Source: Thalassococcus sp. S3
Lineage (GTDB): Bacteria; Pseudomonadota; Alphaproteobacteria; Rhodobacterales; Rhodobacteraceae
NCBI RefSeq assembly: GCF_004216475.1
Contig: NZ_CP022303.1
Location: 62,001-126,000 of the forward strand
Length of the DNA: 64,000 bases
Reading direction: 5' to 3'
The notes under the pieces are model-generated. The model was not told where the DNA came from. It saw only the letters and a list, made by a program, of their open reading frames with translations, and ran no database searches. The position numbers and the translations under genes are program-made. Shown here one piece after another: positions 1-21,071 of this stretch (the stretch's first letter is position 1; each line of letters starts with the position of its first letter).

Positions 1-915
1 ATGGGCCTTTTCGTGATCTTCGACATCTACTACGGCGCGATGCGGGGACAGGGAAAGGTTCTGCTGGGTCTTTTGCCTTTCGCGGCATTGGTGGTCATTG
101 ACCTGTCGGTAACCTACGCGCTCGTCACCCAACTCGGTTGGGGGTTCGAGGCTGTGCTGCTGGGTAATCTCGCAGGTCCGGCCCTGATGCTGCCCGTGAT
201 GATCTGGCTCCTCCGGCGCGAGACGGCCAAGGGCGAAGAGGTCGAGGCAGAGCCCTTCCGCATCCGTCTGCGCCAGCTTCAGGTGCGCGTCGGCCTGCCA
301 GTCTTTAGCTCCATCGTCGTCGGCTTTGTCAGCGCCTCAGTCGTATTCCCGCTTCTCGCCAAGCTTGGACAGGACAATGCATCGGCCTTCTTCGTCGTGC
401 TGCGCTACCGGATCGCCTTCATGATCCCCGCCATCGCGATCGGCTCGGCCATCGCAATCCTCGTCAATCAGGCGACGGAAGAGGGGCAAGGCCGCACGCG
501 GGTCCGATACCTCGCCATCGGGGTGCCGATCATGCTTGTCCTCTATGCCGCGGCCACCTTTGCCTTGCCGAAATGGAGCGCGCCGCTCGACGTCCTTGTT
601 CCCAGCCAATCCGAGACGCTGAGACTGGCCACCGAATTCATGTTCGCCAAGTTGCTGATCACTTTCTTCCTGGTGGCCGCCACGGCGATGTATCAGGTCA
701 TCCTCGAACAGCTTGGGCGCGGCGTACATGTCCTCGTGATCACCATCATCTGCGAGGCAGGCACCTGCGCCGCGATGATCTGGGCCATGCAGAACGGCGC
801 TGACATTACGCTGGTGGTGCAAATCCTCGTCGGCTTCGCGGCGCTCAGCTTTGCGCTCTTCTCGCTCCAGTTCCTGCTTCTGATGCGCAAGATGGGAGCC
901 CAAGATGCTGTTTGA
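1..915 (+). CDS. MATE-type multidrug/metabolite exporter, C-terminal part (cut by window edge)
   Basis: This is an integral membrane protein of about 304 visible residues with roughly eight hydrophobic segments separated by short polar loops. A stretch near residues 135-155 (RYRIAFMIPAIAIGSAIA) resembles the second-half repeat of MATE drug/H+ or Na+ antiporters. Full MATE proteins have about 450 residues and 12 helices, so the N-terminal part should lie to the left, and the ATG at base 1 is probably internal. Its stop overlaps the start of the next gene by 11 bases, which puts it in the biosynthetic operon and suggests it exports the product or an intermediate. Polysaccharide-flippase relatives are a less likely alternative. 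Confidence 0.6.
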   Translation: MGLFVIFDIYYGAMRGQGKVLLGLLPFAALVVIDLSVTYALVTQLGWGFEAVLLGNLAGPALMLPVMIWLLRRETAKGEEVEAEPFRIRLRQLQVRVGLPVFSSIVVGFVSASVVFPLLAKLGQDNASAFFVVLRYRIAFMIPAIAIGSAIAILVNQATEEGQGRTRVRYLAIGVPIMLVLYAAATFALPKWSAPLDVLVPSQSETLRLATEFMFAKLLITFFLVAATAMYQVILEQLGRGVHVLVITIICEAGTCAAMIWAMQNGADITLVVQILVGFAALSFALFSLQFLLLMRKMGAQDAV

Positions 916-1816
916 GCTTGCCTATCCCGGCCTTTGCCTGGCCGAAGGGGTGCGCCGGATCATCGGGCGGCCCCGTCCCGGCCCCGCCTTCGCCTTTCGC
1001 GCGATCAAGGGGCGGATGCGCCGCCACGAGATCGCTATGGTGACCGCCGTCAGCCCCCGTGCGGGCGCCCGCATCGCCCTTCGCCGCTTTGAGACCGCGC
1101 GGCCGGTGAATGCGCCAAGCCCTCGGATCGCTCCGCGCAAGGGCTCTGCCCTCGCCGAACAGTGCTTCGGTCCTGCGACCGGGCCACGTGTGCTCTTGCT
1201 CCATGGGTGGAACGCGCACAGCGCGATGATGCTGCCCTTGGCGCGGATGCTTGCAGCTCAGGGCGCACATGTCGTGGTTCCCGATCTGCCCGGGGAAGGG
1301 GCGAACCCGGCCCGTGCATTCAGCTTTGCCGAGAAGGCGTGTCGGCTGGCGGCGCATTACGAGGGGGACCGCTTTGACGCCATCATCGGTCATTCCGCCG
1401 GTGGCCTGATCGCGGCCCAGGCAGTTGAGCAGGGGTTGCAGGCAGACAGCATGATCACCGTCTGCGCGCCCTATTCGATGGCCACGCTTCTGCATGCCTA
1501 TCTCATCCGGATCGCCGCGCCCGAGCCGCTGCTGGATGCCGTGCTCGATCTTCATGCCCGTCGCGAAGATCGCGATCCGAAACAGGTCGGGCCTGCCGTC
1601 TATGCGGCCTATACCGGGCGGATCCTGATCGTTCACGCCCGTACCGACTGGCAAGTCAAACTGGCGGAAGCGTTTGACATTGCTTCGGTAACCGGGGCCA
1701 CCCCCTTGGTTCTCGATCACTGCAATCACCATACGATCCTGGAAGATCCGCGCCTTCACGCGGCCATATCGGATGCGGTCCTGACCCCGACCGACGAACG
1801 GAGGCTGGCATGCTGA
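905..1816 (+). CDS. alpha/beta-hydrolase
   Basis: A 303-residue alpha/beta-hydrolase fold protein, probably cytoplasmic. The visible motifs are LLLHGW (about 97-102, oxyanion loop), the nucleophile elbow GHSAGG with Ser164, an acid candidate Asp248 in VHARTDW, and a catalytic His candidate at 275-276 in DHCNHHT. The first 80 residues are basic and unlike the core, so the true start could be further in. The ATG lies inside the end of the preceding transporter gene, and the stop overlaps the following ketosynthase-like gene by 7 bases, so translation is probably coupled. It may release the product from a carrier protein or edit mis-primed carriers. It is the only thioesterase candidate in the operon, and its substrate is unknown. 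Confidence 0.75.
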   Translation: MLFELAYPGLCLAEGVRRIIGRPRPGPAFAFRAIKGRMRRHEIAMVTAVSPRAGARIALRRFETARPVNAPSPRIAPRKGSALAEQCFGPATGPRVLLLHGWNAHSAMMLPLARMLAAQGAHVVVPDLPGEGANPARAFSFAEKACRLAAHYEGDRFDAIIGHSAGGLIAAQAVEQGLQADSMITVCAPYSMATLLHAYLIRIAAPEPLLDAVLDLHARREDRDPKQVGPAVYAAYTGRILIVHARTDWQVKLAEAFDIASVTGATPLVLDHCNHHTILEDPRLHAAISDAVLTPTDERRLAC

Positions 1817-2736
1817 GCATTCTTGACGTCGCTGTCGCCTATCCCGCCCGGCAGGAACAGTTGAAGGACCTGTCGGATGATCTGGACCTGACACGGGACC
1901 AGATGCGCATGTATGATCGTTTCTTCGGGTTCGAGGCGTTTCAATGCGATCCGGCAGAGCCGCTTGATACCCTCATCGCCAAGGCGGCATCCGAGGTTCT
2001 GGATCGCAATCCCCAGCAGAACGCGCACCTGTGCTGTGTTACCCATTGCCACACGCTGCTCAACACCAACGTCTTCAACGGCCACACCTCTTCGGTGCTT
2101 GAGCCCTACGCCGCGCGCGGGGTCGAAGTCTTCTCGGCCACGATGAACCATTGCGCGACCGGTGTGACGATGCTGGGCGTCTTCGACCGCCTGCTTGGCG
2201 ATAACGAGACGGGGCTTATCCTGATCGGGGAAAAGGCGTTCCACCCGGCATTGCGGGTGATCGAAAACACCACCGTGATGGGCGAGGCGGCAGCCGCCAT
2301 CCTCGTGGGCCGCTGTCCGGGCCGCTATGAGGTTGTGGATACCCACACGCTGCATGCGCCGCAGTTCTGGAAGAATACCGGCTTGCGCGGTGAAAACTAT
2401 CTCGCCGGGTTCGACACCGCCTATATGGGGTTCGCCTGTGCGGGTCTCGAAGGCGCATTGGACCGTTTCGGGCGTCGTCATGGCGACATTCGCTATGTCA
2501 TGCCGCACAACGTCAACGTCCCGTCCTGGTGCCAGATCGCAAGCGAGACCGGCATTGGGCGCGACAAGGTTCAGCTCTCCACCATCGGGCAATACGGCCA
2601 CTGCTTTGGCGCCGATCCCTTCATCAACCTGACCGATACCGCAGCGCGCGGCGATCTCGATCCCGCCGATCAGGTGCTTTTGTTCAGCATCGGACTGGGG
2701 GCGACCGCCTCCTGTGCGCTGCTTCGCGTGACCTGA
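1810..2736 (+). CDS. KASIII-fold acyltransferase/ketosynthase with a Cys-His-His active site
   Basis: A 308-residue protein of the FabH/thiolase fold. Cys115 in NHCATG fits the acyl-accepting nucleophile. His233 in MPHNVN matches the FabH HQAN histidine. In the segment that normally reads YGNTSA this protein has YGHCFGADPF, so the catalytic Asn is replaced by His263. The C-terminal LFSIGLGATAS matches the closing glycine-rich strand of the family. It overlaps the hydrolase upstream and is followed 44 bases later by a carrier protein. It probably condenses or transfers a carrier-bound acyl or aminoacyl group. It is clearly not the housekeeping fabH, and its closest relative in the window is the protein at 6357-7355. 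Confidence 0.75.
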   Translation: MLSILDVAVAYPARQEQLKDLSDDLDLTRDQMRMYDRFFGFEAFQCDPAEPLDTLIAKAASEVLDRNPQQNAHLCCVTHCHTLLNTNVFNGHTSSVLEPYAARGVEVFSATMNHCATGVTMLGVFDRLLGDNETGLILIGEKAFHPALRVIENTTVMGEAAAAILVGRCPGRYEVVDTHTLHAPQFWKNTGLRGENYLAGFDTAYMGFACAGLEGALDRFGRRHGDIRYVMPHNVNVPSWCQIASETGIGRDKVQLSTIGQYGHCFGADPFINLTDTAARGDLDPADQVLLFSIGLGATASCALLRVT

Positions 2737-2780
2737 TGGCTGCGCAACGCCCCCTTCAAACTCTGACAAGGAGATACATG

Positions 2781-3059
2781 ATGACCGACCTTCAAGGAAC
2801 CGTACTGGACAGCCTCCGTGACGTCGGCCTTGGTCCTCAGCGCATCGACCGCGCCGCCGGGGGTGAAACCCTCTTTGGCACGGGTGGCCTTCTGAACTCC
2901 ATCGAGCTTGTTCAATTCGTGGCCGCGCTCAGCGAGCGGACGGGCGTAGATGCCTTTGACTTCATGGAGAACTTTCAGGGCGGAACCGGCGTCTTCTCGA
3001 CCGTCGAAACGATTTTGGACTTTCTGGAAGGGCGCCGTGTTCAGGCGATGGCAAGCTGA
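2781..3059 (+). CDS. free-standing acyl/peptidyl carrier protein 1
   Basis: A 92-residue four-helix carrier protein. The phosphopantetheine attachment site is Ser40 in GLLNSIEL, with Asn in place of the usual Asp before the Ser. An AAGGAG ribosome-binding site at 2768-2773 sits 7 bases before this ATG; a second ATG three bases upstream is possible. It lies between a KASIII-like gene and a PLP decarboxylase/dehydrogenase fusion, so it probably holds the substrate for both. The phosphopantetheinyl transferase at 20394 is the obvious activating enzyme. The acyl or aminoacyl load cannot be read from sequence. Confidence 0.85.
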   Translation: MTDLQGTVLDSLRDVGLGPQRIDRAAGGETLFGTGGLLNSIELVQFVAALSERTGVDAFDFMENFQGGTGVFSTVETILDFLEGRRVQAMAS

Positions 3060-3061
3060 AG

Positions 3062-5497
3062 ATGGCTGGTTTTTCGTTGAACAGCGCCGAAACCGCAAGA
3101 CTGCGCAGTGTGGCGGACCGGGTCGGCACCCCGTTTTATGTCTATGACGCACAGGCATTGCGGGACCGCGTCGCGGCCTTGAAGGCCGCGCTGCCGGATG
3201 TGGATTTCTTCTATTCGCTCAAGGCCAATCCGAACCTGTCGGTGGTGGGTGTTCTGACATCGGCCGGAACCGGCGCGGAGGTCAGCTCACGCCTTGAGCT
3301 GGAAACCGCCCTGGCCGCCGGCGCCCGCCCCGAGCGGATCCTGATGGTTGGCCCCGGCAAGTCCGCGGATGAGCTGGAACGCGCGGTGTCCTTGGGGATC
3401 AAGGCAATCGTCGTGGAATCCATCGAGGAGTTGGCCGACATCGACCGCCTTGCCGCGTTCGAAGGCCGGATCCAGAGCGTGGCGCTCAGGGTCAATCCTG
3501 ATTTCCAGGTCAGCGGCGCGCGTCTTGCCATGAGCGGTCGGGCCACGCAATTCGGCATCGACCAGTCCGATCTGCAGCGTGCCGTTGCCTGTGTGGAAAC
3601 CCTCCCGCATCTGCGCCTGGCGGGCCTGCACATCTACATGGGCACCCGGATCCTGTCCGAAGAAACGCTGGAGCAGAACACGCGCCAGGTTCTCGCCCTG
3701 GCCGAGGAGCTAATGCCAAACCTCTCCTGGCCGTTGGATTTCGTCGATGTCGGCGGTGGTTTCGGCGTGCCCTATTACGAGGACGAGCAGTCGCTTGATC
3801 TCGACAAGGTCGGCGCGGTTCTGCGGCCGGTTATCGACGGGTTTCGAAGCCGCAACAGCCAGACACGCGTGGCCATCGAACTCGGCCGCTACATGGTGGC
3901 CGAGGCCGGTCTTTTCGTGGCTGGCATCCGCCGTGTCAAAACCACGAAAGGCGAGAATTTCGCTGTCTGCGATGGCGGGTCCAACGTCCATAGTGCTGCT
4001 GCGGGGCAGGGGTTCATGCGCCGCAATTTCCCGGTTTCTCTGGTGCCGAACGGTCCTCGCGATGCTGCGACCGCAGAGAAGTGGACATTCACCGGGCCGC
4101 TTTGCACGCCGATGGATGTCATCGCCTCAGCGATCGAGATCCCCGCGCCGCAGGAAGGCGATCTGATCTGCATCCATCAATCCGGCGGCTATGGGCCTTC
4201 GGCCTCGCCGGTGGACTTTCTTGGCTTCGGTGCCCCGGCAGAAGTGATGGCGGATGGCGACACGCTGACGGTTGCCAAGGAACGTCCGGACTGGCAGTCG
4301 CGGCTGGCCACACAGACCCCGCGCGCCATTCCGATGGATATGACTGGCATCGCCGCGGCGCCCGCTGCACCGTTCGACCATCCCGCGCTTGATCGTCTGT
4401 CGGGCCTGCGTCCGCTTTTTGAGATGACGGGCAACCGGTTAGAGACGGATCCCGGCGCCTGGGCCGATCTCTGGGCCAATCCCACGGTGCGCGCCCTGAC
4501 CACGATCGGTGTTCCCGATGACTATAACGGCTTTCCGCTGTCGCAAACCGATCTGGGGATCGAGGACTGCCCGCATGCCCTTCACGTGGCGCTTGTCGAA
4601 CGGCTGGCCCGCTTTGATCCAAGCTGCATCCTGGCCCTTCCCGGTCCCTCGCTTTCAGGCGGTGCTGTGCTGGCTGCGGGTAATCCCGCGCAGATCGAGC
4701 GGTTCTTCGCACCCTACCGCACGGGACCGCAGGGTACGTTCTTTGCCGTGACCGAACCGGATGTCGGATCGGACGCCTCGAACGGCAGCACGGTCGTGCG
4801 TGAAGCGGCGGATGGCAGCATGACCCTCAGCGGCACCAAGATGCTGGTGGGCGGGATCGCGCGGGCCCGCATCGGTCTGGTCTTTGCACGGATGGAGACG
4901 ACAGGCCGCGCAGCCCTGGTGATGATCGAGCCTCAAGAGGTCGCCGACTACATCAGCATCGAAAGACTGCCGACCAACGGTCTTTGCGGTGCCGATCTGT
5001 GCCGGCTGGAGATGCATGACGTACCTGTCACCAACGACATGTTGTTGGGTGCCGCGTCATCCGGGGGCGGGTCCTTGCGTGACGGGTTCATGGCCATCAA
5101 CGGCGTGTTCGAACGCTACCGCCCCGTCGTGGCAGCCCTCGCATTGGGCAATGCGCGCGGCATTCTGGACCGCTTGGAAAAGGCCAGTGCCTGCGGCGGC
5201 TTTGCCGATATGCAGACGCGTTATACGGCACTTCTGAACCGGCTGGCCCGCGTGCTCGAAGACTATGCGAATGGCCGGCCCCGCAGCCATCGCATCAGTG
5301 AGCTGAAGTTCCAGGCCATCGCCTTCTCGGACGAGCTGGTGATGCGCGTCGCGGCCGAGGCTCCGGGCGCGATGCTCTCCGACACGCTGCTGCGCCGCAA
5401 GATGCGCGACGCGAAGGCGTTCGAATACATGGAGGGCACGTCGAACATCCATCTTCTGAACGCGTTTCGGGCCTATGTGGCGGAGGTTCCGGCATGA
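3062..5497 (+). CDS. PLP-dependent decarboxylase fused to acyl-CoA dehydrogenase
   Basis: An 811-residue bifunctional protein. Residues 1 to about 410 are a fold-III decarboxylase of the DAP/ornithine decarboxylase superfamily: Lys54 in YSLKANPN is the PLP lysine, GGGFG at 231-235 is the phosphate loop, and Cys348 in GPLCTPMD is the cross-subunit catalytic Cys. Residues about 440-811 are an acyl-CoA dehydrogenase: FAVTEPDVGSD at 561-571 is the flavin/substrate motif, and Glu791 in MEGTSN is the usual catalytic base. One uninterrupted frame covers both. BtrK of butirosin biosynthesis is a precedent for such decarboxylases acting on ACP-bound amino acids, so this enzyme may decarboxylate and then desaturate a carrier-bound aminoacyl group. 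It starts 2 bases after carrier protein 1. Confidence 0.85.
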   Translation: MAGFSLNSAETARLRSVADRVGTPFYVYDAQALRDRVAALKAALPDVDFFYSLKANPNLSVVGVLTSAGTGAEVSSRLELETALAAGARPERILMVGPGKSADELERAVSLGIKAIVVESIEELADIDRLAAFEGRIQSVALRVNPDFQVSGARLAMSGRATQFGIDQSDLQRAVACVETLPHLRLAGLHIYMGTRILSEETLEQNTRQVLALAEELMPNLSWPLDFVDVGGGFGVPYYEDEQSLDLDKVGAVLRPVIDGFRSRNSQTRVAIELGRYMVAEAGLFVAGIRRVKTTKGENFAVCDGGSNVHSAAAGQGFMRRNFPVSLVPNGPRDAATAEKWTFTGPLCTPMDVIASAIEIPAPQEGDLICIHQSGGYGPSASPVDFLGFGAPAEVMADGDTLTVAKERPDWQSRLATQTPRAIPMDMTGIAAAPAAPFDHPALDRLSGLRPLFEMTGNRLETDPGAWADLWANPTVRALTTIGVPDDYNGFPLSQTDLGIEDCPHALHVALVERLARFDPSCILALPGPSLSGGAVLAAGNPAQIERFFAPYRTGPQGTFFAVTEPDVGSDASNGSTVVREAADGSMTLSGTKMLVGGIARARIGLVFARMETTGRAALVMIEPQEVADYISIERLPTNGLCGADLCRLEMHDVPVTNDMLLGAASSGGGSLRDGFMAINGVFERYRPVVAALALGNARGILDRLEKASACGGFADMQTRYTALLNRLARVLEDYANGRPRSHRISELKFQAIAFSDELVMRVAAEAPGAMLSDTLLRRKMRDAKAFEYMEGTSNIHLLNAFRAYVAEVPA

Positions 5498-6360
5498 CCC
5501 TCCACCTTGATCCGCGCACGCTTGTCTCAGGTGAATTCGGGTGTCTGGAACCAGCGCAGCCCGAATGGCTGGACCAATATGATTATTGGGAGGATTTCAA
5601 CGCCCGTTTCTTTCAGTCGAACGGTGCCGAATACCATCCGGATCGCCACAGCAACGTTCAATCCTGGCTCACCGCGCCTGACCGGGCGCCATACGCCGCG
5701 ATGGCGGATGTTCTGCTGACCGAATTGCAGGGTCGCGCCGATCTTGGTGATGTCGATCTGGTGTTGATGGCGCATTGGATGCCGGATGTGCATCTGGGCA
5801 CGTCGGTGACCAATTTCGCACTGCATAAGCTGGGTCTGGAGAACGGGTTCGGCTTTGCGATCTCGGATCGTGGACGCTCTGCGCCGCTCTTCGCGCTGCA
5901 ATGTGCCGCGCGGTATCTGCGCGATGGCCGCAAAAAGGCGCTTTTGATGGTCATGGATCAAAAGCACCTGCTCTACCGCTCTGACGTCGTGGATGCCGTT
6001 CAACCCTCCAATTCCGGCAGTGTCATGGTGCTTGAAGCGGCAGGGCAGGGCGGTCTGGCCTATGTCGGTTATGAAAGGCGCACCGGGATTGGCGCGGCGG
6101 ACACGGCACGCACGGTCGCTGAGATCTGCACCGAATACGGATTGGACCGTGCCGCCGTCACGGTCATCGCGGACCCCGACCTGACAGAGGCGCTGGCAAA
6201 GGACGGCCCGGTTCGCCAGCAGACCCCGCGCAAGCTCTGCTCGGCCCCGTTTGCCGCCCTTGCCGAAGCAGGCTCCACCATCGGGAACGTGATGCTTTTG
6301 ACCCGGGATGCGGATGAGGTGAGCGCCGTTCTCTTTCGCAACGCGGAGGGCGTGGTATGA
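5494..6360 (+). CDS. KASIII-fold protein lacking the nucleophilic cysteine
   Basis: A 288-residue divergent thiolase-fold protein. In the segment matching the FabH active site it reads SDRGRSAPLFAL, so Arg128 occupies the Cys position, and no HN-type histidine motif is recognisable in the C-terminal half. Its start overlaps the upstream stop by 4 bases (ATGA), and the next gene, which encodes a Cys-containing KASIII protein, overlaps its own stop in the same way. Paired genes of this kind occur for PqsB/PqsC and for ketosynthase/chain-length-factor pairs, where the Cys-less subunit shapes the pocket. A heterodimer with the 6357 product is the most economical reading, and it is inferred. Confidence 0.65.
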   Translation: MTLHLDPRTLVSGEFGCLEPAQPEWLDQYDYWEDFNARFFQSNGAEYHPDRHSNVQSWLTAPDRAPYAAMADVLLTELQGRADLGDVDLVLMAHWMPDVHLGTSVTNFALHKLGLENGFGFAISDRGRSAPLFALQCAARYLRDGRKKALLMVMDQKHLLYRSDVVDAVQPSNSGSVMVLEAAGQGGLAYVGYERRTGIGAADTARTVAEICTEYGLDRAAVTVIADPDLTEALAKDGPVRQQTPRKLCSAPFAALAEAGSTIGNVMLLTRDADEVSAVLFRNAEGVV

Positions 6361-7355
6361 GGCTTTCGGTGCTTGCAACCCACATCCCCGCGGACCGCAT
6401 CAGCACCGAGGACATCGTTGCCGCCGCGGATGGCAGCGTGGCAGAGGCGCGGGTGTTCCGCAGGATGTTCGGGGTCGATCACGTCGCTGCCATGCCCGAG
6501 GATCAGACGCTGAGCGATCAGTTCGAGCGGATCGTGATCGGGCTGGAAGCGGAGCACGACGGCACGCTTCCCGACGCGCTGATCTATGTCAGGGGGCAAC
6601 CCGTTCAATATCCTCGCGGCCAGTCCCCCGTGGCGCGTCTCGCGCAGGAGCATCCCTTTCTGCGCGGCGTCATGCGGCAGTACGAGGTCGATCAGCACAA
6701 TTGCGGCGGTCTGTTCTGGGCTCTGGATCTGGCGCGGACGCTTCTTGCCTCCGGGCTGGCCCGTGCGGTCGCGATCCTGGGCGGCGATTGCCATGCGGGT
6801 TTGCCTTTGGGCGACCGCTATGTGCCGGGCTGCACGCTGATGGGCGATGCCTTTTGCGGCATGGTGGTCGATCTGGAGGCCCAGGGCGACCAGGTCGCGC
6901 CGGTCACGCTTCGGACCCATCCCGAATTCGCCCGTGGCCGGTCGGGCACGGCCGCCGAGATGGGGGCCTTCTTCGCCGCCCATACCCGCATCGTGAGCGA
7001 AGCGCTATGCGATGCCGGGTTTGACTGGGCGGGCAAAGACACCCTTTTGCCCCATAACGTGAACCGTCTGGCCTGGCAGGATTTCTGTCGGCAGAGCGGT
7101 ATCGAGACCGACCGCATCCGGCTGAGCCTGCTGCCGGACATCGGACATTGCTACATCTGCGACCCCTTCCTTTTGCTGGCCCAGGAACGCCTGCAAGGCC
7201 CCACCGCGCATGCGCAACCCACGCTGATTTCGGTCGGCATGGGCGGCTATGTCGGCGCCTGCAAGGTCACGTGCGCCGCAGCCCCAACGCCCCTGAGCCG
7301 TTCCCACATCACCCAGAAGGAGAGTGCCCCATGCACGCAACTCGCACCTTGCTGA
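6357..7355 (+). CDS. KASIII-fold acyltransferase/ketosynthase, second Cys-His-His enzyme
   Basis: A 332-residue FabH-like protein with Cys116 in DQHNCGG, His233 in LPHNVN and His264 in DIGHCYICDPF, where FabH has the catalytic Asn. It shares the PHNVN and GHC-x3-DPF signatures with the 1810-2736 product, so the two are paralogues. The start overlaps the Cys-less partner gene by 4 bases, and the last 25 bases overlap the following ligase gene. The C-terminal extension after about residue 305 is unlike FabH and may merely reflect read-through into the overlap. It probably forms the catalytic half of a heterodimer. Confidence 0.75.
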   Translation: MRLSVLATHIPADRISTEDIVAAADGSVAEARVFRRMFGVDHVAAMPEDQTLSDQFERIVIGLEAEHDGTLPDALIYVRGQPVQYPRGQSPVARLAQEHPFLRGVMRQYEVDQHNCGGLFWALDLARTLLASGLARAVAILGGDCHAGLPLGDRYVPGCTLMGDAFCGMVVDLEAQGDQVAPVTLRTHPEFARGRSGTAAEMGAFFAAHTRIVSEALCDAGFDWAGKDTLLPHNVNRLAWQDFCRQSGIETDRIRLSLLPDIGHCYICDPFLLLAQERLQGPTAHAQPTLISVGMGGYVGACKVTCAAAPTPLSRSHITQKESAPCTQLAPC

Positions 7356-8875: not shown

Positions 8876-8896
8876 AACTCCCGAGAGGAAACTGAC

Positions 8897-10719: not shown

Positions 10720-10739
10720 TCCGGACAGGGAGAACACTC

Positions 10740-12083: not shown

Positions 12084-12115
12084 AGCCAGAACCTCTTGCT
12101 GAGAAAGGTCAGCCG

Positions 12116-13648: not shown

Positions 13649-13865
13649 GCATTGGTCGCATGACTCCGGACGCTCCGTGTCCTTTATCTGCGGACATCCT
13701 CGATCCGGTTCTGAGTGGTCCTCGATTGCGCGTGGCGCTGAAAACATTGGGAAAACGCGAAATTGGGACGTCCTAATTTGTGTTCTAGGTCGCGGGACCC
13801 GCATCAGCGCCCCTAATCTCGGCTCAGACCAAGGATGTCGGAACCCGGAAAGGGAATCGCTATGA
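13641..13865 (+). pseudogene. short stub resembling the N-terminus of a sulfotransferase
   Basis: An ATG at 13641 overlaps the stop of the preceding adenylation gene and is preceded by GGAGG at 13627-13631 with good spacing, so it looks like a real, coupled start. The 74-residue product has FICGHPRSGSEW at about residues 17-28, close to the PAPS-binding 5' loop of sulfotransferases (usually GxPRSGTTW). After this point no sulfotransferase sequence continues. It overlaps the adaptor gene start by 4 bases. It may be a decayed or deleted sulfotransferase gene, or a coincidental small frame; the identification rests on one motif. Confidence 0.35.
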
Positions 13866-15001
13866 CGGACAATGCCGATCTTGAAGAGAAGCTGCGCTCG
13901 CTGGCAATTGAGCGCAAGGAAGAGCCGGCCGGCAAACCCCGTCGGCGCCGCTGGCCCGCCGTTGCCGCACTCCTGCTGATGACCGCAGCCGGAAGTGCCG
14001 TTGCCTTTCCGGGACTTCGCGGTTCGGTTGCGGACACGGTGACCAACCAGGTTGGCCAGTTCGCGGGCATGTGGTCGGAGGCTGATCCGGTCGTGAAGGC
14101 CTCGGCCAAGCCAGGTGAGGTTCGCACGGCTGATCGGGCGCCGACCCCGACGCCGAGGCCAGCGATACAGACGGCCCGGAGTGTTCCCAACATCGTTGGA
14201 TCGGGGCACGTGATCGCGCCAAAGGAAGTCGTCGTCCAATCGGAGATACCGGGCCGCGTCGACCGGCTGGGCGTGGACATCGGAGATATCGTCCGGAAGG
14301 GCGACGTAGTGGCCTGGCTTGATGCGACAGAGGCGGAACTGGCCCTTGAGATCGCGCAATCCGATGTCGAGCTGGCCCGGTCCGAAGTGAACCTGGCGCG
14401 GGCCGAACTGGCCGCTGCCGAAGGGCCGATTGCGCGGCTTGAGACGCTTGTCGATCGCGGAACGGCAAGCTCGGCGCAATTGTCGGATGCCCGCCTGTCG
14501 GCGCAGCATCTGGCCCAGGCGATTGCGGTGGCGCAACGCAAGCTGGATACCGCGCAGCTTCGCGTCGCGCAGGCCCGGGCAACGCTTGATCGCCACGTTC
14601 TGCGCGCGCCCTTCGACGCCGTCGTGGTGGAGCGTCCCGCCGCGCCCGGCATGCTTTTGTCATCCGGTGAGGATGGCGGGGCCGATGCCGCCGGGTTGAT
14701 GACGCTGATGGATGTGTCCGAGATGTTCATCGACGTCGATGTGGCCGAGCGCAACATAGCCGGTATTCGTGCAGACATGCCCGCCGAGGCGCAGCTCGAT
14801 GCCTATCCCGACCGCAAACTTGATGCGCGCGTCGTCTCTATCAACCCGCGCGCCTCGCGTGAAAAAGGGACGGTTACCGTGCGCCTGAAACTCGAAACAG
14901 CAGATCTGACGGGCGTGCTGGCCAACATGGCCGCAAAGGTGACCTTCACCGCCGACCGTCAACTGGAACTGTCCGCCGTGGACATCTACAGGAGGCAATG
15001 A
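13862..15001 (+). CDS. periplasmic adaptor (HlyD/MacA family) of ABC exporter
   Basis: A 379-residue membrane-fusion protein. A basic stretch (residues 26-30) precedes one transmembrane helix at about 31-50. A periplasmic linker, a lipoyl-like half (VVVQSEIPGRVDRLGVDIGD), an alpha-helical hairpin around 150-250 rich in Ala, Glu and Arg, and a beta-barrel region follow. The ATG at 13862 follows GGAAAGGGA. The gene precedes an ATPase and two FtsX-type permeases, as in MacAB- or DevBCA-like exporters. No outer-membrane TolC partner is encoded nearby. It probably exports the locus product across the envelope. Confidence 0.85.
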   Translation: MTDNADLEEKLRSLAIERKEEPAGKPRRRRWPAVAALLLMTAAGSAVAFPGLRGSVADTVTNQVGQFAGMWSEADPVVKASAKPGEVRTADRAPTPTPRPAIQTARSVPNIVGSGHVIAPKEVVVQSEIPGRVDRLGVDIGDIVRKGDVVAWLDATEAELALEIAQSDVELARSEVNLARAELAAAEGPIARLETLVDRGTASSAQLSDARLSAQHLAQAIAVAQRKLDTAQLRVAQARATLDRHVLRAPFDAVVVERPAAPGMLLSSGEDGGADAAGLMTLMDVSEMFIDVDVAERNIAGIRADMPAEAQLDAYPDRKLDARVVSINPRASREKGTVTVRLKLETADLTGVLANMAAKVTFTADRQLELSAVDIYRRQ

Positions 15002-15005
15002 GCTC

Positions 15006-15707
15006 ATGAGCACCGGAATCGATATCGAACTCAGAAACGTGAGCAAAAGCTACCCGCTTGGTAAGTCACGTATCGCGATCTTCGAGGATATGACACTCAC
15101 CATCCCCGAGGGCGACTTCCTGGCCATCATGGGACCCTCCGGATCGGGCAAATCGACGATCCTGAACCTGATCGGCGGGATCGACACGGTCGATGCAGGG
15201 ACCGTCAGCATCGGGGGCACGGTTCTTGAGAAGATGGGGGATGCCGCCCTGACCCGCTGGCGATCCGCCAATGTCGGATTTGTCTTCCAGTTCTACAACC
15301 TCATGCCGATGCTGACTGCGGCGGAGAATGTTGAACTGCCCCTTTTGCTGACGCCCCTGTCGCGCCGCGAACGCAAGGAGCGGGTGCAGATGATCTTGGA
15401 TATCGTCGGTCTGGGCGAACGGCAAGGCCACCGCCCGTCGGAATTGTCCGGCGGACAGCAGCAGCGTGTTGGCATCGCCCGGGCCGTGGCGACGGACCCG
15501 AAAATCCTGCTCTGTGATGAACCGACAGGGGATCTGGACCGCAAATCCGCGAACGAGATCCTGGATATCCTGCAGATGCTGAACCGCAAGCTGGGCAAGA
15601 CCATCGTCATGGTCACCCATGACGACAGTGCCACCCGCGTCGCCAAACGGACCCTGTTTCTGGACAAGGGCCAATTCGTCAGCAGGGAGATGTCACAATG
15701 CGCCTGA
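15006..15707 (+). CDS. ABC exporter ATPase (MacB/LolD type)
   Basis: A 233-residue nucleotide-binding subunit: Walker A GPSGSGKST (43-51), Q-loop in FVFQFYN, signature LSGGQQQR, Walker B LLCDEPTGDLD and the switch His in MVTHDD. The sequence belongs to the LolD/MacB/DevA group that works with FtsX-fold permeases. It starts 4 bases after the adaptor gene, and its stop lies inside the first permease gene (10-base overlap). It powers the exporter encoded with its neighbours. Confidence 0.93.
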   Translation: MSTGIDIELRNVSKSYPLGKSRIAIFEDMTLTIPEGDFLAIMGPSGSGKSTILNLIGGIDTVDAGTVSIGGTVLEKMGDAALTRWRSANVGFVFQFYNLMPMLTAAENVELPLLLTPLSRRERKERVQMILDIVGLGERQGHRPSELSGGQQQRVGIARAVATDPKILLCDEPTGDLDRKSANEILDILQMLNRKLGKTIVMVTHDDSATRVAKRTLFLDKGQFVSREMSQCA

Positions 15708-16861
15708 ACGCCTCCATGCTGGTTCGGCAAAACCTGACGCGCAAGCTGACGCGCAGTGTGTTGTTGGTCGTCTGCATTGCCATCGCCTTCTTTGTCTTCG
15801 GTGTCCTGTCGAGCTTCCGCGCCGGCTTTGAAGGAAGTGAGGCGCAATCCGAACGCCTGGTGACCGCCTCGAAGATCGGCGGTAACGAGATGCTGCCGCT
15901 CAGTTACCTGACAGCGCTTCAGGGCGTCGAGAATGTCGAGGCCGTGACCCACGTCACCCGGTTGCGGGCCTTTGTCGCCGGCAATCCCCGCAACATCATC
16001 GGCGCCAACGCCGTCGATCCCGAAAGCTATGCCGCAGTCTACGCCGACACCTATACACTCGGCTCCGATCTTCTGGCCGCATTCGACGCCGACAGGACCG
16101 GAACACTGGTCGGCCGCAGTCTGGCAGAGCGTGAGGGCTGGCAGGTCGGTGACCGTGTTAATCTGACAAGCTTTGTTCATATGAACGGTGACGGAAACCG
16201 GAACTGGAGCTTCACTGTCGCGGGGATTTTCGACGGGGCCGAGCCCACGGTCGATACCAGCTTTCTGATCGTGCGGTACGATTATTTCAATGCCGCACTC
16301 GCCTTTGGTCAGGACCGGGTCAACATGTTCGGCATCAAGCCCGTTCAGGGCGCCGACGTCGACCGGATCACCGAAGCGATTGACGCAACCTACGCCAACT
16401 CGGCAGCTCAGACGCGCACCCAGACCGAAACCGCCTTCCTGTCCGCCTTCCTCGAACAGTTCGCCGATGTCGCGCTTATCGTCAGGCTGATCGTGTCGGT
16501 GGCCTTTGCGACCATTCTCATGATCGTTGCCAACACCATGATCTTTGCCATTCGGGAGCGGACGCTTGAAATTGGGGTGTTGAAGGTTCTTGGCTTCTCC
16601 GGCTCCAGCGTGATGCGGATCGTTCTGGCGGAAACCTTTGTGTTGTTCGCCGCCGGGCTGGCTCTTGGACTGGCGCTGACCGCAGCTGTCATCCCTGTTC
16701 TGGGCGACGCGCTCAAAAGCGTTGTACCGGACCTCTATCTGACACCCAGCGTCATTCTGACGGCTGCCGGATTTGCCGCGCTCTTTGCCCTGCTGACCGG
16801 TGCGCTTCCCGCCCTCAAAGCCCTGCGCCTGCCCATTGTGGCGGCTCTGACCCAGAGGTGA
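15698..16861 (+). CDS. ABC exporter permease 1 (FtsX/MacB fold)
   Basis: A 387-residue permease with one transmembrane helix near residues 20-40, a long periplasmic domain, and three C-terminal helices from about residue 260. This is the FtsX/MacB topology. The permease is not fused to an ATPase as in MacB. A second, distinct permease follows 4 bases later, so the exporter is probably a heterodimer like LolCE. Confidence 0.85.
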   Translation: MRLNASMLVRQNLTRKLTRSVLLVVCIAIAFFVFGVLSSFRAGFEGSEAQSERLVTASKIGGNEMLPLSYLTALQGVENVEAVTHVTRLRAFVAGNPRNIIGANAVDPESYAAVYADTYTLGSDLLAAFDADRTGTLVGRSLAEREGWQVGDRVNLTSFVHMNGDGNRNWSFTVAGIFDGAEPTVDTSFLIVRYDYFNAALAFGQDRVNMFGIKPVQGADVDRITEAIDATYANSAAQTRTQTETAFLSAFLEQFADVALIVRLIVSVAFATILMIVANTMIFAIRERTLEIGVLKVLGFSGSSVMRIVLAETFVLFAAGLALGLALTAAVIPVLGDALKSVVPDLYLTPSVILTAAGFAALFALLTGALPALKALRLPIVAALTQR

Positions 16862-16865
16862 CATC

Positions 16866-18059
16866 ATGATCCGTTTTCTGCATCAATCCCTTGCTCTGTC
16901 CCTGACCAATCTGCGGTCCGTACACCGCAGGGCCTGGATCTCTCTCTCCATGGTGTGCTCCGTCGCCCTTGTCGTGGTGGTTCTGCTGGGCTTTCTTTCG
17001 ATGGCCAACGGGTTCCGTCAGACGCTTGATGCGACCGGGGCCGACGATGTCGGAATGGTCGTCAGCCGCGCCGCGATCGGCGAAGCGATGAGCAGCCTGT
17101 CGACCCGTCAAACTCACCTGATCGAAGAAGCGCCCGGCATTGAAAGGACAGAAAGTGGCCAGCCCATTATGTCGGCCGAGCTTCTGGTGCCGGTCGATGC
17201 GGTCAGCGTTGACGACGGCCAGGCCGCGACCCTCTCTCTGCGTGGCGTTGGCCCGCAAGGGCTCGCGTTGCGGGCCAACGTGGACATCGCCTCTGGCCGC
17301 ATGTTCGAGCCCGGCGCGGCGGAGATTATCGTCGGTCAACGGCTGGCCGGCAGATATCAGGACATGGATGTGGGCGACACGATCTCCTTTGGACGTTCGG
17401 AGTGGACGGTCGTCGGGCACTTCACCGCGGGTGGCAGTGTGTTCGAATCCGAAATGATGACCGATCGCGGCATGGTTCAGACCCTCTTTGACCGTCAGAA
17501 CGTCGTCCAAAGCGTGCGTGTGAAGCTGACCGGCCCCGAACGTTTTGAAGAGTTCCGCGCCTATGTCGAGGATGAGCTGGATATGGGCCTGACCGCCCAT
17601 ACCGAAAAGGCATTCTTTGCTGCGCAAGCCAGCGATGTGAGCCGTATCATCCTGTTTCTCGGCTGGCCTCTGGCCATCGTGATGGCCATCGGTGCCGCGG
17701 CAGGGGCGATGACGACGATGTATAGCTCCGTCTCGGACCGTCGGGTCGAAATCGCGACGGTGCGTGCGATCGGATATTCCCGGGGCGCGGCCTTTATGGG
17801 CACCCTTGTCGAAGCGGTCGCGCTGACGGTTCTGGGATGCGCCGTAGGGGTGGCCATTGCCTGGCTCGGCCTCGATGGCTGGAGCGCATCGACCCGTGGC
17901 GGCGCCAATACGCAACTCGCCTTCGAACTGGCCCTGTCCTGGCCGATTGTCGTGAATGCCAGCATCATGGCGCTGTGCGTCGGGTTTCTGGGTGGGGGCC
18001 TCCCGGCCTTCCGTGCAACCCGTGTCCCCCTGCGGAGCGCCATGACCGGACGAAGCTGA
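16866..18059 (+). CDS. ABC exporter permease 2 (FtsX/MacB fold)
   Basis: A 397-residue protein with the same layout as permease 1: an N-terminal helix (about 20-45), a periplasmic domain, and three C-terminal helices. The C-terminal helices contain the family motif VEIATVRAIGYSRG (about 298-311). It is clearly divergent from permease 1 and ends the long operon. A strong hairpin lies 35 bases downstream, which probably separates this operon from the monooxygenase genes. Confidence 0.85.
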   Translation: MIRFLHQSLALSLTNLRSVHRRAWISLSMVCSVALVVVVLLGFLSMANGFRQTLDATGADDVGMVVSRAAIGEAMSSLSTRQTHLIEEAPGIERTESGQPIMSAELLVPVDAVSVDDGQAATLSLRGVGPQGLALRANVDIASGRMFEPGAAEIIVGQRLAGRYQDMDVGDTISFGRSEWTVVGHFTAGGSVFESEMMTDRGMVQTLFDRQNVVQSVRVKLTGPERFEEFRAYVEDELDMGLTAHTEKAFFAAQASDVSRIILFLGWPLAIVMAIGAAAGAMTTMYSSVSDRRVEIATVRAIGYSRGAAFMGTLVEAVALTVLGCAVGVAIAWLGLDGWSASTRGGANTQLAFELALSWPIVVNASIMALCVGFLGGGLPAFRATRVPLRSAMTGRS

Positions 18060-18093
18060 TAGCGGTCCCCCTCCCGTGACCGCCGTCACATCT

Positions 18094-18135
18094 GCCGCCG
18101 GGAGGTGCTCTCCCTCCTCCCGACCTCCCGGCGGC
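18094..18135 (+). terminator. strong hairpin between exporter and monooxygenase genes
   Basis: A perfect 13-bp inverted repeat, GCCGCCGGGAGGT (18094-18106) and ACCTCCCGGCGGC (18123-18135), with a 16-base loop. No U-tract follows, so it may be an RNA-processing or stabilising hairpin or an attenuator rather than a classical terminator. Confidence 0.6.
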
Positions 18136-18201
18136 TTCCAACGCTACCAGATACCTGTCTCTGCGACCTGACCCTCTCAAGTCTCCCGAAAGGAACGCCC
18201 C

Positions 18202-19218
18202 ATGAAACTCCTGACAACCGCGCCCCCCTCCGTTCGGTTCGCACCCAAGACTTATCTGGATGCAGTCACTGACCTGGCCCGTTGGAACGAAGCCGCGGGC
18301 GTCGAGGGGATGCTGATGTATACCGACAACAGCCTGATGGATCCCTGGTGCGTGGCGCAGGCCGTGATGGAAGGGACCGAGCGTTTCGTGCCTCTGGTCG
18401 CGGTTCAGCCGATCTATATGTCGCCCCTGGCCGCGGCGCGCAAAGTGTCGTCGCTGGCCTTTCTTTATGGACGCAAGATGGCGCTGAACATGGTTGCCGG
18501 CGGGTTCAAGAAGGACCTTGAGCAATTGGGCGACGCCACCGAACACGACGCGCGCTATGATCGTCTGGTTGAATATACCCAGATCCTTCAGGCCCTGCTG
18601 CGGGGCGGGCCTGTCACCTTTTCCGGGGCCTATTACCAGGTGTCCAACCTCAAGCTTTCGCCAGCCCTGCCGCCGGAATTGATGCCCGATATCTATCTTT
18701 CCGGCGCATCCGATGCCTGCCTTGCCGCCGCCGCCACGTTAGAGGCGACGCGGTTCAGCTATACCAAACCGCCCGCCGATCTTGAGCCCAAGGCCCCCCT
18801 TCCCGGCGCGGGACGGCTGGGCCTGCGGTTCGGCGTGATCGCCCGGCCTGACGCAGAAGAAGCCTGGGCCATCGCACGCGACCGCTTTCCGGCGGACCGG
18901 CGCGGGCAAATGGCGCACAAGATGGCGCGGGGGGTTACCGATTCCGTCTGGCATCACGAGATCTCTGAACTGGCGGACGACCTGCACGACGCGCGTGACG
19001 GGGCCTATTGGCTCTATCCGATCAAGAATTACAGGACCTTCTGTCCCTATCTTGTCGGCAGCTATGATGAGGTTGCGGACTATATCAGACGCTATGCCGC
19101 GCTGGGCTTTCGGTGCCTGATCCTCGACGTGCCGCAATCTCAGGACGATCTGGCCCATGCCATGACCGCATATCACCGCAGCAGCGTGCAGACACAGCCC
19201 GTCGTGCAACCCGCCTAA
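18202..19218 (+). CDS. luciferase-like (LLM class) flavin-dependent monooxygenase
   Basis: A 338-residue bacterial-luciferase-fold protein. ALNMVAGGFKKDL (about 94-106), SGASDACLAAAA (about 174-185) and the C-terminal YIRRYAALGFRCLIL match the FMN/substrate framework of SsuD-like monooxygenases. The ATG follows GAAAGGAAC. No flavin reductase gene is adjacent, so FMNH2 would come from elsewhere. BtrO of butirosin biosynthesis, an LLM enzyme that hydroxylates an ACP-bound aminoacyl group, is a relevant precedent because a BtrK-like decarboxylase is also present here. Its substrate is inferred, not shown. Confidence 0.8.
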   Translation: MKLLTTAPPSVRFAPKTYLDAVTDLARWNEAAGVEGMLMYTDNSLMDPWCVAQAVMEGTERFVPLVAVQPIYMSPLAAARKVSSLAFLYGRKMALNMVAGGFKKDLEQLGDATEHDARYDRLVEYTQILQALLRGGPVTFSGAYYQVSNLKLSPALPPELMPDIYLSGASDACLAAAATLEATRFSYTKPPADLEPKAPLPGAGRLGLRFGVIARPDAEEAWAIARDRFPADRRGQMAHKMARGVTDSVWHHEISELADDLHDARDGAYWLYPIKNYRTFCPYLVGSYDEVADYIRRYAALGFRCLILDVPQSQDDLAHAMTAYHRSSVQTQPVVQPA

Positions 19219-19239
19219 CCTGACAGAGGATTGGGACAT

Positions 19240-20397
19240 ATGTTCAAACGCGAACTCTTTTCGGCCGGACATGAGGCGTTGCGAGAAGACGTCGGCGCCT
19301 TTCTGGAAGCCGAAATCGTTCCGCATCACGATGACTGGGCCGCGTCAGGTCACATCCCACGCGAAGTGTGGCGCAAGGCCGGTGCCGCTGGTCTGTTGTG
19401 CCGAACCGTGCCACGCGAATATGGCGGGGTGGGCGGCAGCTTTATCGACTCTGTCGTCATCATCGAGGAACTGGCCAAGCGCCGCATTTCGGGTTTGCTG
19501 AGTTTTCTGCAAAGCGACATCGTCGCGCCCTTCATCCTCAAGCTCGGGTCCGAAGATCAGAAGGCACATTGGCTACCTGGTTTCTGCTCGGGAGAGACCC
19601 TGGGCGCCATCGCCATGACCGAACCGCAGGGCGGCAGCGATATCAGCGGGCTTAAAACCCGCGCGCAGCGGCACGGAGAGGGGCTTTTGCTGGATGGGAC
19701 AAAGACCCATATCTCCAACGGTTCCGCTGCGGATGTGATCATTGTGGCCGCCCGTGCCGATGACGGGGCGCCCGGCCAACAACCCGCGATCAGCCTGATC
19801 CTTGCCGAAGCCGCGCGACCGGGAATAAACCGCACGCGGATCGCCAAGTCGGGCATGCCTGCGCTCGATACCAGCGAGATCACGTTCGACAATTGCCTAG
19901 TTCCCTCCGGCAACCTTTTGGGGGCCGAGGGTATGGGGTTTGTCTATCTCATGACGTTTTTGGGGATCGAACGATTGGCCCTGGCCATCTACGCACAGGC
20001 CTCCGCGGAACGGATGTTGCGCGACCTCATCGCCGATTGTGACGCCCGCAAAGGGGTGGAGGGGACGGTTCTCGACTTTCAGAACACACGGTTTTCGCTG
20101 GCCGATCTCTACAGCGCCTGTGCCGTGAACCGCGCCTTTATCGACAATTGCATCAAGGTGGCCGAAGCCGGGCGTCCCGATCCGAAAGGGGCCTGCATCG
20201 CCAAATTGCGTGCGACCGATTGCTTGCGTCAGATCGCGGCGCTGGGCGTGCAATATCGTGGTGCGGCCGGGATCAGCGGCGAAAGCGGCTCTCGCGCCAC
20301 TCAGGATATGGTTGACAGCGCGGTCCAGTCGGTCTGGGGCGGAACCAGCGAGATCATGCGCGATGTGATCGGGCGCGGGCTGGCCAGCGTCTTGTGA
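19240..20397 (+). CDS. acyl-CoA/acyl-ACP dehydrogenase
   Basis: A 385-residue flavin dehydrogenase with IAMTEPQGGSD and the C-terminal VWGGTSEIM. Gly replaces Glu at the MCAD base position, and Glu in FLGIERLALA fits the alternative base site used in isovaleryl-CoA and long-chain dehydrogenases. AGAGGA at 19225-19230 supports the ATG at 19240 rather than the TTG at 19231. Relatives that oxidise carrier-bound aminoacyl groups (prolyl-PCP dehydrogenases) work with stand-alone adenylation enzymes and free carriers, as here. The next gene, a PPTase, overlaps its stop by 4 bases. Confidence 0.85.
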   Translation: MFKRELFSAGHEALREDVGAFLEAEIVPHHDDWAASGHIPREVWRKAGAAGLLCRTVPREYGGVGGSFIDSVVIIEELAKRRISGLLSFLQSDIVAPFILKLGSEDQKAHWLPGFCSGETLGAIAMTEPQGGSDISGLKTRAQRHGEGLLLDGTKTHISNGSAADVIIVAARADDGAPGQQPAISLILAEAARPGINRTRIAKSGMPALDTSEITFDNCLVPSGNLLGAEGMGFVYLMTFLGIERLALAIYAQASAERMLRDLIADCDARKGVEGTVLDFQNTRFSLADLYSACAVNRAFIDNCIKVAEAGRPDPKGACIAKLRATDCLRQIAALGVQYRGAAGISGESGSRATQDMVDSAVQSVWGGTSEIMRDVIGRGLASVL

Positions 20398-21071
20398 GCA
20401 TGACGGCCGTCGATGTCCTGCACGTGGTCGCTTGTGCGGACCAGCCGGATCTGGCCCGCACCTGTCTGTCCGCGACCGAGCGGGCCCATGCGAAGCGTAT
20501 CGCTAACACTGCCGCAAGGGCACTCTACATATCCGCACATGAGACCTTGCGCCGGGCACTGGCGGAGCGGCTCGATATAGCGCCGCGCCGTGTCCCCATC
20601 GTCGCAGGATGGAACGGTCGCCCGGAACTGGCAGAAGGGGCGCGACCCAGTTTCAACCTAAGCCATTCCGGAGGTCGCGCGATCATCGCGATATGCGACG
20701 AGGGCGATGTCGGTGTCGATATCGAGCGTCAGCGCCCCCGCCGTTCCGCGTCCCGCCTGGCGGAGCGGCTCTTCGCCGAGGAGGAGCGAACCGCGCTCGC
20801 CGCGTTGGAGCCTGCCTGTTTTTCCTTGGCCTTCACCGAACTCTGGACTTTGAAAGAGGCGTTCATCAAAGCAACCGGCGAAGGGTTGGCGCGTCCCCTT
20901 AACAGTTTCGCGATCGACTGGACGGTCCCAAGGCTGGTTCGGGGGCAGGGGGATGCCGACTGGGTGCTCGATACGCTTCCCGTTGGTCCCGGCTATCGGG
21001 CAGCGCTGGCTATTCGTGGCGCAAGCTCTTGTTCTGTAACACACAAAATCGCAAAGCCGCTACAATCATAA
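20394..21071 (+). CDS. 4'-phosphopantetheinyl transferase (Sfp type)
   Basis: A 225-residue enzyme that transfers phosphopantetheine from CoA to carrier-protein serines. The visible signatures are FNLSHSGG (CoA-binding), VGVDIE (Mg-binding) and FTELWTLKEAFIKATG (catalytic Glu/Lys helix). The start is GTG at 20394, overlapping the upstream stop, or ATG at 20400. It is the dedicated activator for the two free carrier proteins of this locus and confirms that carrier-bound chemistry is in use. Confidence 0.92.
   Translation: MSMTAVDVLHVVACADQPDLARTCLSATERAHAKRIANTAARALYISAHETLRRALAERLDIAPRRVPIVAGWNGRPELAEGARPSFNLSHSGGRAIIAICDEGDVGVDIERQRPRRSASRLAERLFAEEERTALAALEPACFSLAFTELWTLKEAFIKATGEGLARPLNSFAIDWTVPRLVRGQGDADWVLDTLPVGPGYRAALAIRGASSCSVTHKIAKPLQS

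Follow-up and report, generated by a model that had tools for sequence, protein, structure and literature searches.

A probable alphaproteobacterial variant of the Dickeya vfm biosynthetic locus in Thalassococcus sp. S3

The window analysed here is a 64,000-nucleotide stretch of Thalassococcus sp. S3 (contig NZ_CP022303.1; G000:C1:62001-126000 of a 5.0 Mb genome in 4 contigs). The genes at its 5' end belong to a locus that we judge, with good confidence, to be a Vfm-type biosynthetic locus, an alphaproteobacterial variant of the vfm locus of Dickeya, making a small exported pseudopeptide of the Vfm class. Dickeya vfm is a 26-gene locus controlling virulence, which encodes the stand-alone adenylation proteins VfmM, VfmO and VfmP, the oxoacyl-ACP (acyl carrier protein) synthase VfmW, the ABC permease VfmG and a multidrug transporter (PMC9306890). 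The window edge cuts the locus, which begins 2,895 bases before window position 1 (L008:9106 = C1:59106, L008 being the upstream stretch C1:50001-64000) and comprises 24 genes over ~25 kb, from window -2,894 to 22,332 (C1:59106-84332). It runs from KSD to an AraC-type regulator gene. KSA to KSD denote its proteins of the ketoacyl-ACP synthase III (KAS III) type, A1 to A3 its adenylating enzymes and ACP1 to ACP3 its carriers (Table 1).

A sequence-only reading of window positions 1-21071 had described a thiotemplated pathway whose parts are free-standing, run in one direction and include no condensation domain. Open reading frame (ORF) positions and family searches bear out the parts and place them all on the + strand. 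The Pfam scan, which covered 17 of the 24 locus proteins, recovered three AMP-binding enzymes, PP-binding carriers, a phosphopantetheinyl transferase (PPTase), the second acyl-CoA dehydrogenase, the luciferase-like monooxygenase, the P450 homologue, the alpha/beta hydrolase and a fusion of an Orn/DAP-type decarboxylase with an acyl-CoA dehydrogenase. No condensation domain was found among these 17 proteins, and the locus does not have the makeup of a canonical nonribosomal peptide synthetase assembly line. ACP1 had no significant family match and is called a probable carrier from its place, its size and its LNSIELV motif. The count of three KASIII-fold proteins and two carriers holds within the window, and the locus has a fourth KAS III protein and a third carrier upstream: KSD, ACP3, a half-size dehydrogenase-like protein, a 194-aa protein and the 5' part of the MATE gene lie there in the same direction. 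The claim that no characterised cluster has this set is not supported, as Dickeya vfm has it in its biosynthetic part; the vfm product itself is uncharacterised.

Because 20 of the 23 intergenic gaps are overlaps or at most 44 bp (the other three being 186, 142 and 160 bp), one or a few transcripts are likely for the 24 genes. Yoonia maritima keeps the MATE-to-AraC order of the window, apart from an additional ORF that separates FtsX2 from the monooxygenase gene, which argues that the arrangement is not due to chance. The extra ORF (L064:18020-19000) gave FAD-binding matches and is lacking in the window.

To place the locus beside vfm, the ten code positions of the adenylating enzymes were fixed in two Dickeya proteins independently, the A2 homologue of strain 2B12 and the A3 homologue of strain ZYY5, and both placements fell on the same alignment columns. 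All four codes then read from Dickeya loci L025 and L026, for VfmO and VfmP, were identical to those published for these strains (PMC9306890), and because the published codes are reproduced the Dickeya stretch is taken to be vfm. At Dickeya locus L057 a histidine kinase, a sigma-54 response regulator with a Fis-type helix-turn-helix, a MacB/FtsX permease and an AraC protein stand beside the A2 and A3 homologues, fitting the descriptions of VfmI, VfmH, VfmG and VfmE. The window A2 code, DVFVVCTVAK, is identical at 9 of 10 positions to published VfmO3, and the A3 code, DMLFFGACVK, at 9 of 10 to both VfmP2 and VfmP4 (PMC9306890). D-V-[FY]-V-x-C-x-V-A-K is common to 23 of 23 A2 rows, while the window's A3 code recurs unchanged in Mesorhizobium, Xenorhabdus and Vibrio (with the window, 4 of 16 rows), in a table of ORFs above 200 bits that leaves out A3 of L009, L010, L011 and L014 and A2 of L013. 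A1 carries the motif TECHRC, found in 23 of 25 aligned rows, Dickeya included. In the Dickeya genome the best matches of A1 (E 5.6e-152) and A2 (E 3.9e-118) both lie in vfm, the next best reaching 3.3e-51 and 2.7e-54.

A1 is equated with VfmM because PMC9306890 names only three adenylation proteins, and KSC as VfmW agrees with the description of VfmW there as an oxoacyl-ACP synthase, one that co-varies in Dickeya with the amino acid enzyme VfmP. By gene count, the other letters would be K for the decarboxylase, L for the first KSB, N for the carrier, Q for a glyoxalase-like protein, R and U for dehydrogenases, S for a small protein, T for KSA, V for the second KSB and W for KSC. Dickeya counterparts were also found for ACP1 (37% over 51 residues), ACP3, the half-size dehydrogenase, the MATE protein, the hydrolase and the PPTase, and a weak one (27%) for the 194-aa protein. 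The two loci share three stand-alone adenylating enzymes with near-identical VfmO- and VfmP-like codes and the A1 motif, carriers, four KAS III orthology groups, decarboxylase, dehydrogenase, half-size dehydrogenase, MATE protein, hydrolase, PPTase and an FtsX-type exporter. The window locus differs in its fusion, a Cys-less P450 homologue, the monooxygenase, a second dehydrogenase, a different AraC protein, one KSB rather than two, and the lack of VfmI and VfmH; conversely, the second unfused dehydrogenase and the glyoxalase-like gene of vfm were not found in the window locus.

Orthology of the KAS III set was examined in a tree of 69 proteins of 230-420 aa from 15 of the 47 loci described below, together with four from extended stretches, of which one is a duplicate, and with groups named by best window match. 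KSB, KSC and KSD each fall into a single supported clade that holds both Dickeya and window members, and 14 KSA rows make up another; the tree carries warnings of long branches that link KSB with KSC and of unusual composition in four rows. Dickeya has two KSB copies, and the tree does not resolve which of them is the partner of the window KSB. Seven more KSA-labelled rows (L018, L020-L022, L028, L030, L032) make a separate fifth group, which occurs in Pseudomonas, Xenorhabdus, Vibrio, Lonsdalea, Prodigiosinella and Xenophilus (L018-L023, L028-L030, L032, L046, L055), has PYH in place of PHN, and is encoded directly before A1 and beside a second KSB; no member was found in the window locus or the Dickeya loci.

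The KASIII-fold label of the sequence-only reading stands at different strengths for the three window proteins. KSA passes the cut-off of the KAS III C-terminal Pfam family (PF08541) and has Cys, His and a second His where FabH has Asn; its profile matches include, among the best 60 of 71, the acyltransferases CerJ and ChlB3. KSC, with Cys-His-His, which is also the triad of KAS I/II, approaches PF08541 and PF08545 without reaching their cut-offs. KSB has no Pfam match, and its assignment comes from a predicted structure (pLDDT 95) whose fold matches are KAS III. At the aligned places KSB lacks both the Cys and the His that its relatives have; in some gammaproteobacterial KSB-type proteins a Cys stands, by eye, two residues ahead of the aligned nucleophile position, so that the lack of Cys is firm for the window protein only. 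The KSB and KSC genes overlap, and by fold matches and PDB titles the putative KSB-KSC complex resembles PqsBC of Pseudomonas aeruginosa, in which a KAS III-fold protein lacking the residues is likewise encoded in overlap with an active one; the substrates and the operon differ.

The fusion predicted by the sequence-only reading is indeed one 811-aa protein, with a BtrK-like pyridoxal phosphate (PLP) decarboxylase at residues ~1-420 and an acyl-CoA dehydrogenase at ~440-811, and the two are separate proteins in other lineages. Their fusion argues that the two enzyme steps belong together. The decarboxylase half scores 268 bits with BtrK against 157 for the best diaminopimelate decarboxylase, and the PLP-Lys, the Cys and the dehydrogenase Glu are kept; with BtrK nearest and both decarboxylase motifs present, it has the sequence marks of a carrier-dependent PLP decarboxylase (BtrK/VinO). 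The butirosin system BtrJ-BtrI-BtrK differs in using an ATP-grasp enzyme where the window has an adenylating enzyme, and in its unfused decarboxylase. A siderophore of the NRPS-independent (NIS) type was rejected, since the score of the decarboxylase against N-citrylornithine decarboxylase is no more than 67 bits and the proteins searched included no NIS synthetase. A protein search seeded with the fusion gave 217 relatives, and among the 120 matches listed fused forms were named from Phaeobacter, Pseudovibrio, Agrobacterium, Rhizobium, Mesorhizobium and Azospirillum, and unfused decarboxylases from Dickeya, Serratia and Vibrio. A fused arrangement was called in eight of the 47 loci, all inside L009-L017; L012 is cut, its decarboxylase being split over two ORFs. 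The decarboxylase of the Pseudomonas loci is cut off in the stretches so classified, and in the whole Pseudomonas locus L062 it is unfused. Elsewhere in the genome, at G000:C1:306413-307594 (L068), a second BtrK-like decarboxylase (47%) shares its ORF with a thioesterase (4HBT) domain, and the gene of an A1-like ligase (33%) comes next; these may belong to another carrier-based pathway.

Over the pocket half, VinN is the solved structure nearest to A1; the alignment is gapless, the VinN loop Arg is kept and the Lys is replaced by His. For A2 and A3 the nearer relative is DltA, which loads a carrier; the structure 8k4r, which may be VinM, scored far lower, and VinM was rejected on these scores as the direct parent of A2. 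In vicenistatin starter formation VinN loads the carrier, VinO decarboxylates on it, and VinM ligates an amide on the carrier-bound decarboxylated beta-amino acid (PMC11284099). The window locus shares with this VinN-VinL-VinO-VinM module the VinN-like pocket half, a free carrier and, putatively, a PLP decarboxylase acting on the carrier; it differs in having no polyketide synthase, in the His at VinN Lys330 and in its fused decarboxylase.

Several findings weigh against assigning the locus to the Vfm type or limit how far that assignment goes. Identities to the Dickeya proteins are 28-57%. A1 has His at the position of VinN Lys330 (PMC11253843), and over its whole length it scores higher with linear gramicidin synthase, a protein with two A domains (320 bits), than with VinN (269 bits). 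A2 and A3 score below the DltA cut-off and their codes do not reveal substrates. KSD was not found in L016 and L017, nor the hydrolase in L009, within 10-kb flanks, and in the alphaproteobacterial locus L031 the decarboxylase and dehydrogenase are unfused. No VfmI/VfmH pair was found in the window locus; elsewhere in the genome the regulator gave only NtrC-like matches (35% and 32%), the kinase not having been searched genome-wide, and a pair at a distant site was discarded as a candidate. The single alphaproteobacterial match to VfmH, a 203-aa Rhizobium protein (L016:2363-2974), has 42% identity over 93 residues, and neither VfmI nor VfmH was found in the stretches examined of Lonsdalea, Xenorhabdus and Vibrio, with no search beyond those. 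The locus is therefore filed as Vfm-type biosynthesis and not as a Vfm quorum-sensing system, since the sensor pair that such a system carries beside its biosynthetic genes, VfmI and VfmH, was sought there and not found.

Gene content, orthology, pocket codes and active-site residues are observed directly, and from them we infer the following steps. The PPTase would activate the carriers. A1 (VfmM, VinN-like) would activate the side-chain carboxylate of Asp or Glu and load it onto a carrier, on which the decarboxylase half of the fusion would take off the alpha-carboxylate to give beta-alanyl- or 4-aminobutyryl-ACP. The dehydrogenase half would then oxidise the alpha-beta bond to 3-aminoacryloyl- or 4-aminocrotonyl-ACP. 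Two further small amino acids would be provided by A2 and A3 (VfmO, VfmP), and bonds may be formed by the KAS III proteins (KSA, KSD, and KSC with its putative inactive partner KSB), as the sequence-only reading had proposed for carrier-bound aminoacyl units, or by A2 and A3 acting in the manner of VinM. The hydrolase would release the product, the MATE and ABC/FtsX systems would export it, and regulation would fall to the AraC-type protein instead of VfmI/VfmH.

The biosynthetic family could be the same and the product here an antibiotic or protective metabolite, signalling being the use made of it in Dickeya, with the exporters serving self-protection and the AraC protein acting as pathway-specific activator; to this we give not quite an even chance. 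It would suit the missing VfmI/VfmH pair, for which no close match was found in a genome search with the regulator, the two exporter types, the oxidative enzymes absent from the Dickeya stretch (luciferase-like monooxygenase and P450 homologue) and the occurrence of a KSA/decarboxylase/KSB/dehydrogenase core in Paenibacillus and Streptomyces. However, because MATE, ABC and FtsX parts are common to vfm-like loci, the exporters are no mark of an antibiotic, and the AraC-type regulator gene, one of which accompanies the loci in 10 of 11 genomes, is compatible with a signal as well as an antibiotic. Bond formation allows a further reading, which we regard as plausible at somewhat under even chance: A2 and A3 would make the amide bonds as VinM does, and the KAS III proteins would only shuttle acyl groups between carriers. 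VinM forms its amide on a carrier-bound, decarboxylated beta-amino acid that comes from VinN and VinO (PMC11284099), a module matched here by A1 plus the decarboxylase, and the lack of a condensation domain fits, but A2 and A3 are nearer to carrier-loading DltA and three carriers exceed what VinM logic needs. Malonyl-type C-C extension by the KAS III proteins to a short amino-polyketide in place of a pseudopeptide is improbable, for although the predicted KAS III folds are complete, KSB-KSC resembles a condensing enzyme (PqsBC, by PDB title) and the Cys-His-His triad recurs in KAS I/II, no ketoreductase or acyltransferase gene was found in the locus by the Pfam scan, Dickeya VfmW co-varies with VfmP, and KSA matches CerJ and ChlB3.

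Genes resembling VfmI and VfmH occur in the two Dickeya loci and, outside that genus, in Rahnella, Prodigiosinella and five Pseudomonas loci, which suggests that VfmI/VfmH-type signalling may reach beyond Dickeya. The loci are L025-L030, L046, L055, L061 and L063; the non-Dickeya genes have 40-51% (VfmI) and 51-65% (VfmH) identity to those of Dickeya, and together with a VfmG-like permease gene they lie beside vfm-like loci. Of 11 genomes searched, 10 have a gene for the window-type AraC protein, which sits at the cluster in L014, L015 and L031 and shares a contig with it in L009; that it is a membrane protein we assume, having recognised this by eye alone. A bolder and rather unlikely scheme would make Vfm signalling one dialect of a widespread family, in which alphaproteobacteria would read the signal through a one-component membrane AraC receptor, a haem-less P450 remnant might serve as scaffold or activator, and the signal would come from an acidic amino acid loaded, decarboxylated and desaturated on a carrier.

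The KSA profile, run over 84,980 species genomes, yielded 47 loci, with relatives in Rhodobacterales, Rhizobiales, Pseudomonas, Xenorhabdus, Vibrio and others. Nine of the ten alphaproteobacterial loci (L009-L017) show the same set and order as far as the 10-kb flanks show, with A3 beside KSD in L015; the tenth, L031, is more rearranged. A1-ACP2-A2-A3 are consecutive in 13 of 15 loci of Enterobacterales, Vibrio and Pseudomonas, L024 and L027 being cut on that side. Among 295 sampled genomes of the window's family, with 3 candidates scored per genome, a match to the fusion (E 1e-100) was present in 3: the window's own genome, G085, where the match runs nearly full length, and G020, where it is confined to the decarboxylase half and holds one internal stop. 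This scatter suggests horizontal transfer. Loci in Paenibacillus, Polycladospora and actinobacteria (L033-L038, L042, L044, L045, L048-L053) hold a core of KSA with separate decarboxylase and dehydrogenase, mostly also with a carrier and KSB, and in both of those tested (L034 and L053) an ATP-grasp enzyme stands between KSA and the decarboxylase, in the place of A1.

As had been read from the sequence, the P450 homologue has no haem Cys, and the trait is confined to alphaproteobacterial rows, where the Cys is absent in 6 of 6 (window and 5 others); it is present in 13 of 13 gammaproteobacterial rows. The alphaproteobacterial homologue, without the haem-binding Cys of a functional cytochrome P450, is unlikely to act as a monooxygenase. 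The Dickeya loci showed no P450. The Mesorhizobium locus (L059-L060) has two Cys-less homologues, and its A3 adjoins KSD, not A2. Close relatives of the flavin monooxygenase occur in 6 of 15 genomes, and the Mesorhizobium cluster carries a different one. Prodigiosin-like proline oxidation was rejected for the second dehydrogenase, whose scores with RedW (171 bits) and PigA (138 bits) fall far short of the cut-offs. The MATE-like protein scores 32 bits with TIGR00797, far below the NCBIfam cut-off, and is 34% identical to its Dickeya counterpart; in a Pseudomonas vfm-like locus the HlyD, ABC (42%) and 809-aa permease genes are consecutive.

Table 1. Features of the Vfm-type locus; positions are those of the window unless prefixed with L008
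Feature	Position	Strand	Evidence
Vfm-type locus, in-window part	1..22332	+	gene order, gaps, Yoonia order
KSD, fourth KAS III	L008:9106-10035	same direction as window locus	
ACP3, third carrier	L008:10048-10323	same direction as window locus	
212-aa protein, half acyl-CoA dehydrogenase-like	L008:10316-10954	same direction as window locus	
194-aa protein	L008:10958-11542	same direction as window locus	no family match
MATE-like exporter, 3' two thirds	1..915 (whole gene L008:11539-12915)	+	TIGR00797, below cut-off
Alpha/beta hydrolase	905..1816	+	PF00561; 28% to Dickeya counterpart
KSA, KAS III-like; VfmT by gene order	1810..2736	+	PF08541; residues; tree
ACP1, probable carrier	2781..3059	+	LNSIELV; match to Dickeya ORF preceding decarboxylase
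Fusion decarboxylase-dehydrogenase; VfmK + VfmU by gene order	3062..5497	+	PF02784, PF00278, PF02770, PF00441
KSB, KAS III fold without catalytic Cys and His	5494..6360	+	predicted structure, residues
KSC, KAS III-like, Cys-His-His; VfmW by gene order	6357..7355	+	PF08541/PF08545 just below cut-off; tree
A1, adenylating enzyme; VfmM	7331..8875	+	PF00501; VinN-like pocket half
ACP2, carrier; VfmN by gene order	8897..9163	+	PF00550
A2, DltA-like adenylating enzyme; VfmO	9160..10719	+	PF00501; code DVFVVCTVAK
P450 homologue without haem Cys	10740..12083	+	PF00067
A3, DltA-like adenylating enzyme; VfmP	12116..13648	+	PF00501; code DMLFFGACVK
Exporter block	13835..18059	+	HlyD-type adaptor, ABC ATPase, two FtsX-type permeases
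HlyD-type adaptor	13835-15001	+	TIGR01730 above cut-off
ABC ATPase	15006-15707	+	no family search made
FtsX-type permeases (two)	15698-16861, 16866-18059	+	
Luciferase-like flavin monooxygenase	18202..19218	+	PF00296
Second acyl-CoA dehydrogenase	19231..20397	+	PF02771, PF00441, PF02770; RedW below cut-off
PPTase	20394..21071	+	PF01648
AraC-type regulator, hydrophobic N-terminal half (by eye)	21232..22332	+	AraC families, residues ~240-350

On its 5' side the locus is preceded by L008:798-8584, genes in one direction for two AMP-binding ligases, an SDR protein and, by eye, an ECF-type transporter and an MFS transporter. The ligases, SDR and MFS genes (L008:2768-8584) were rejected as pathway members, having no relatives near L009-L017 and lying across a 521-bp gap; the ECF genes were not queried. 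The gene 3' of the locus we take, by eye alone, to encode FlgI.

The vfm cluster was called uniquely present in Dickeya in a 2022 review (PMC8860905), and the vfm system Dickeya-specific, with its molecule still uncharacterised, in a July 2026 paper (PMC13395407). Among the matches listed from one open-access library there was no report of vfm-type loci outside Dickeya, which is not proof of absence. Orthologous loci elsewhere would offer further producers for isolating a vfm-type compound, and the resemblance to VinN and BtrK points to first candidate substrates. A relative of Dickeya vfm in a very different bacterium, with two of the enzymes fused, may provide clues to how the signal is assembled.

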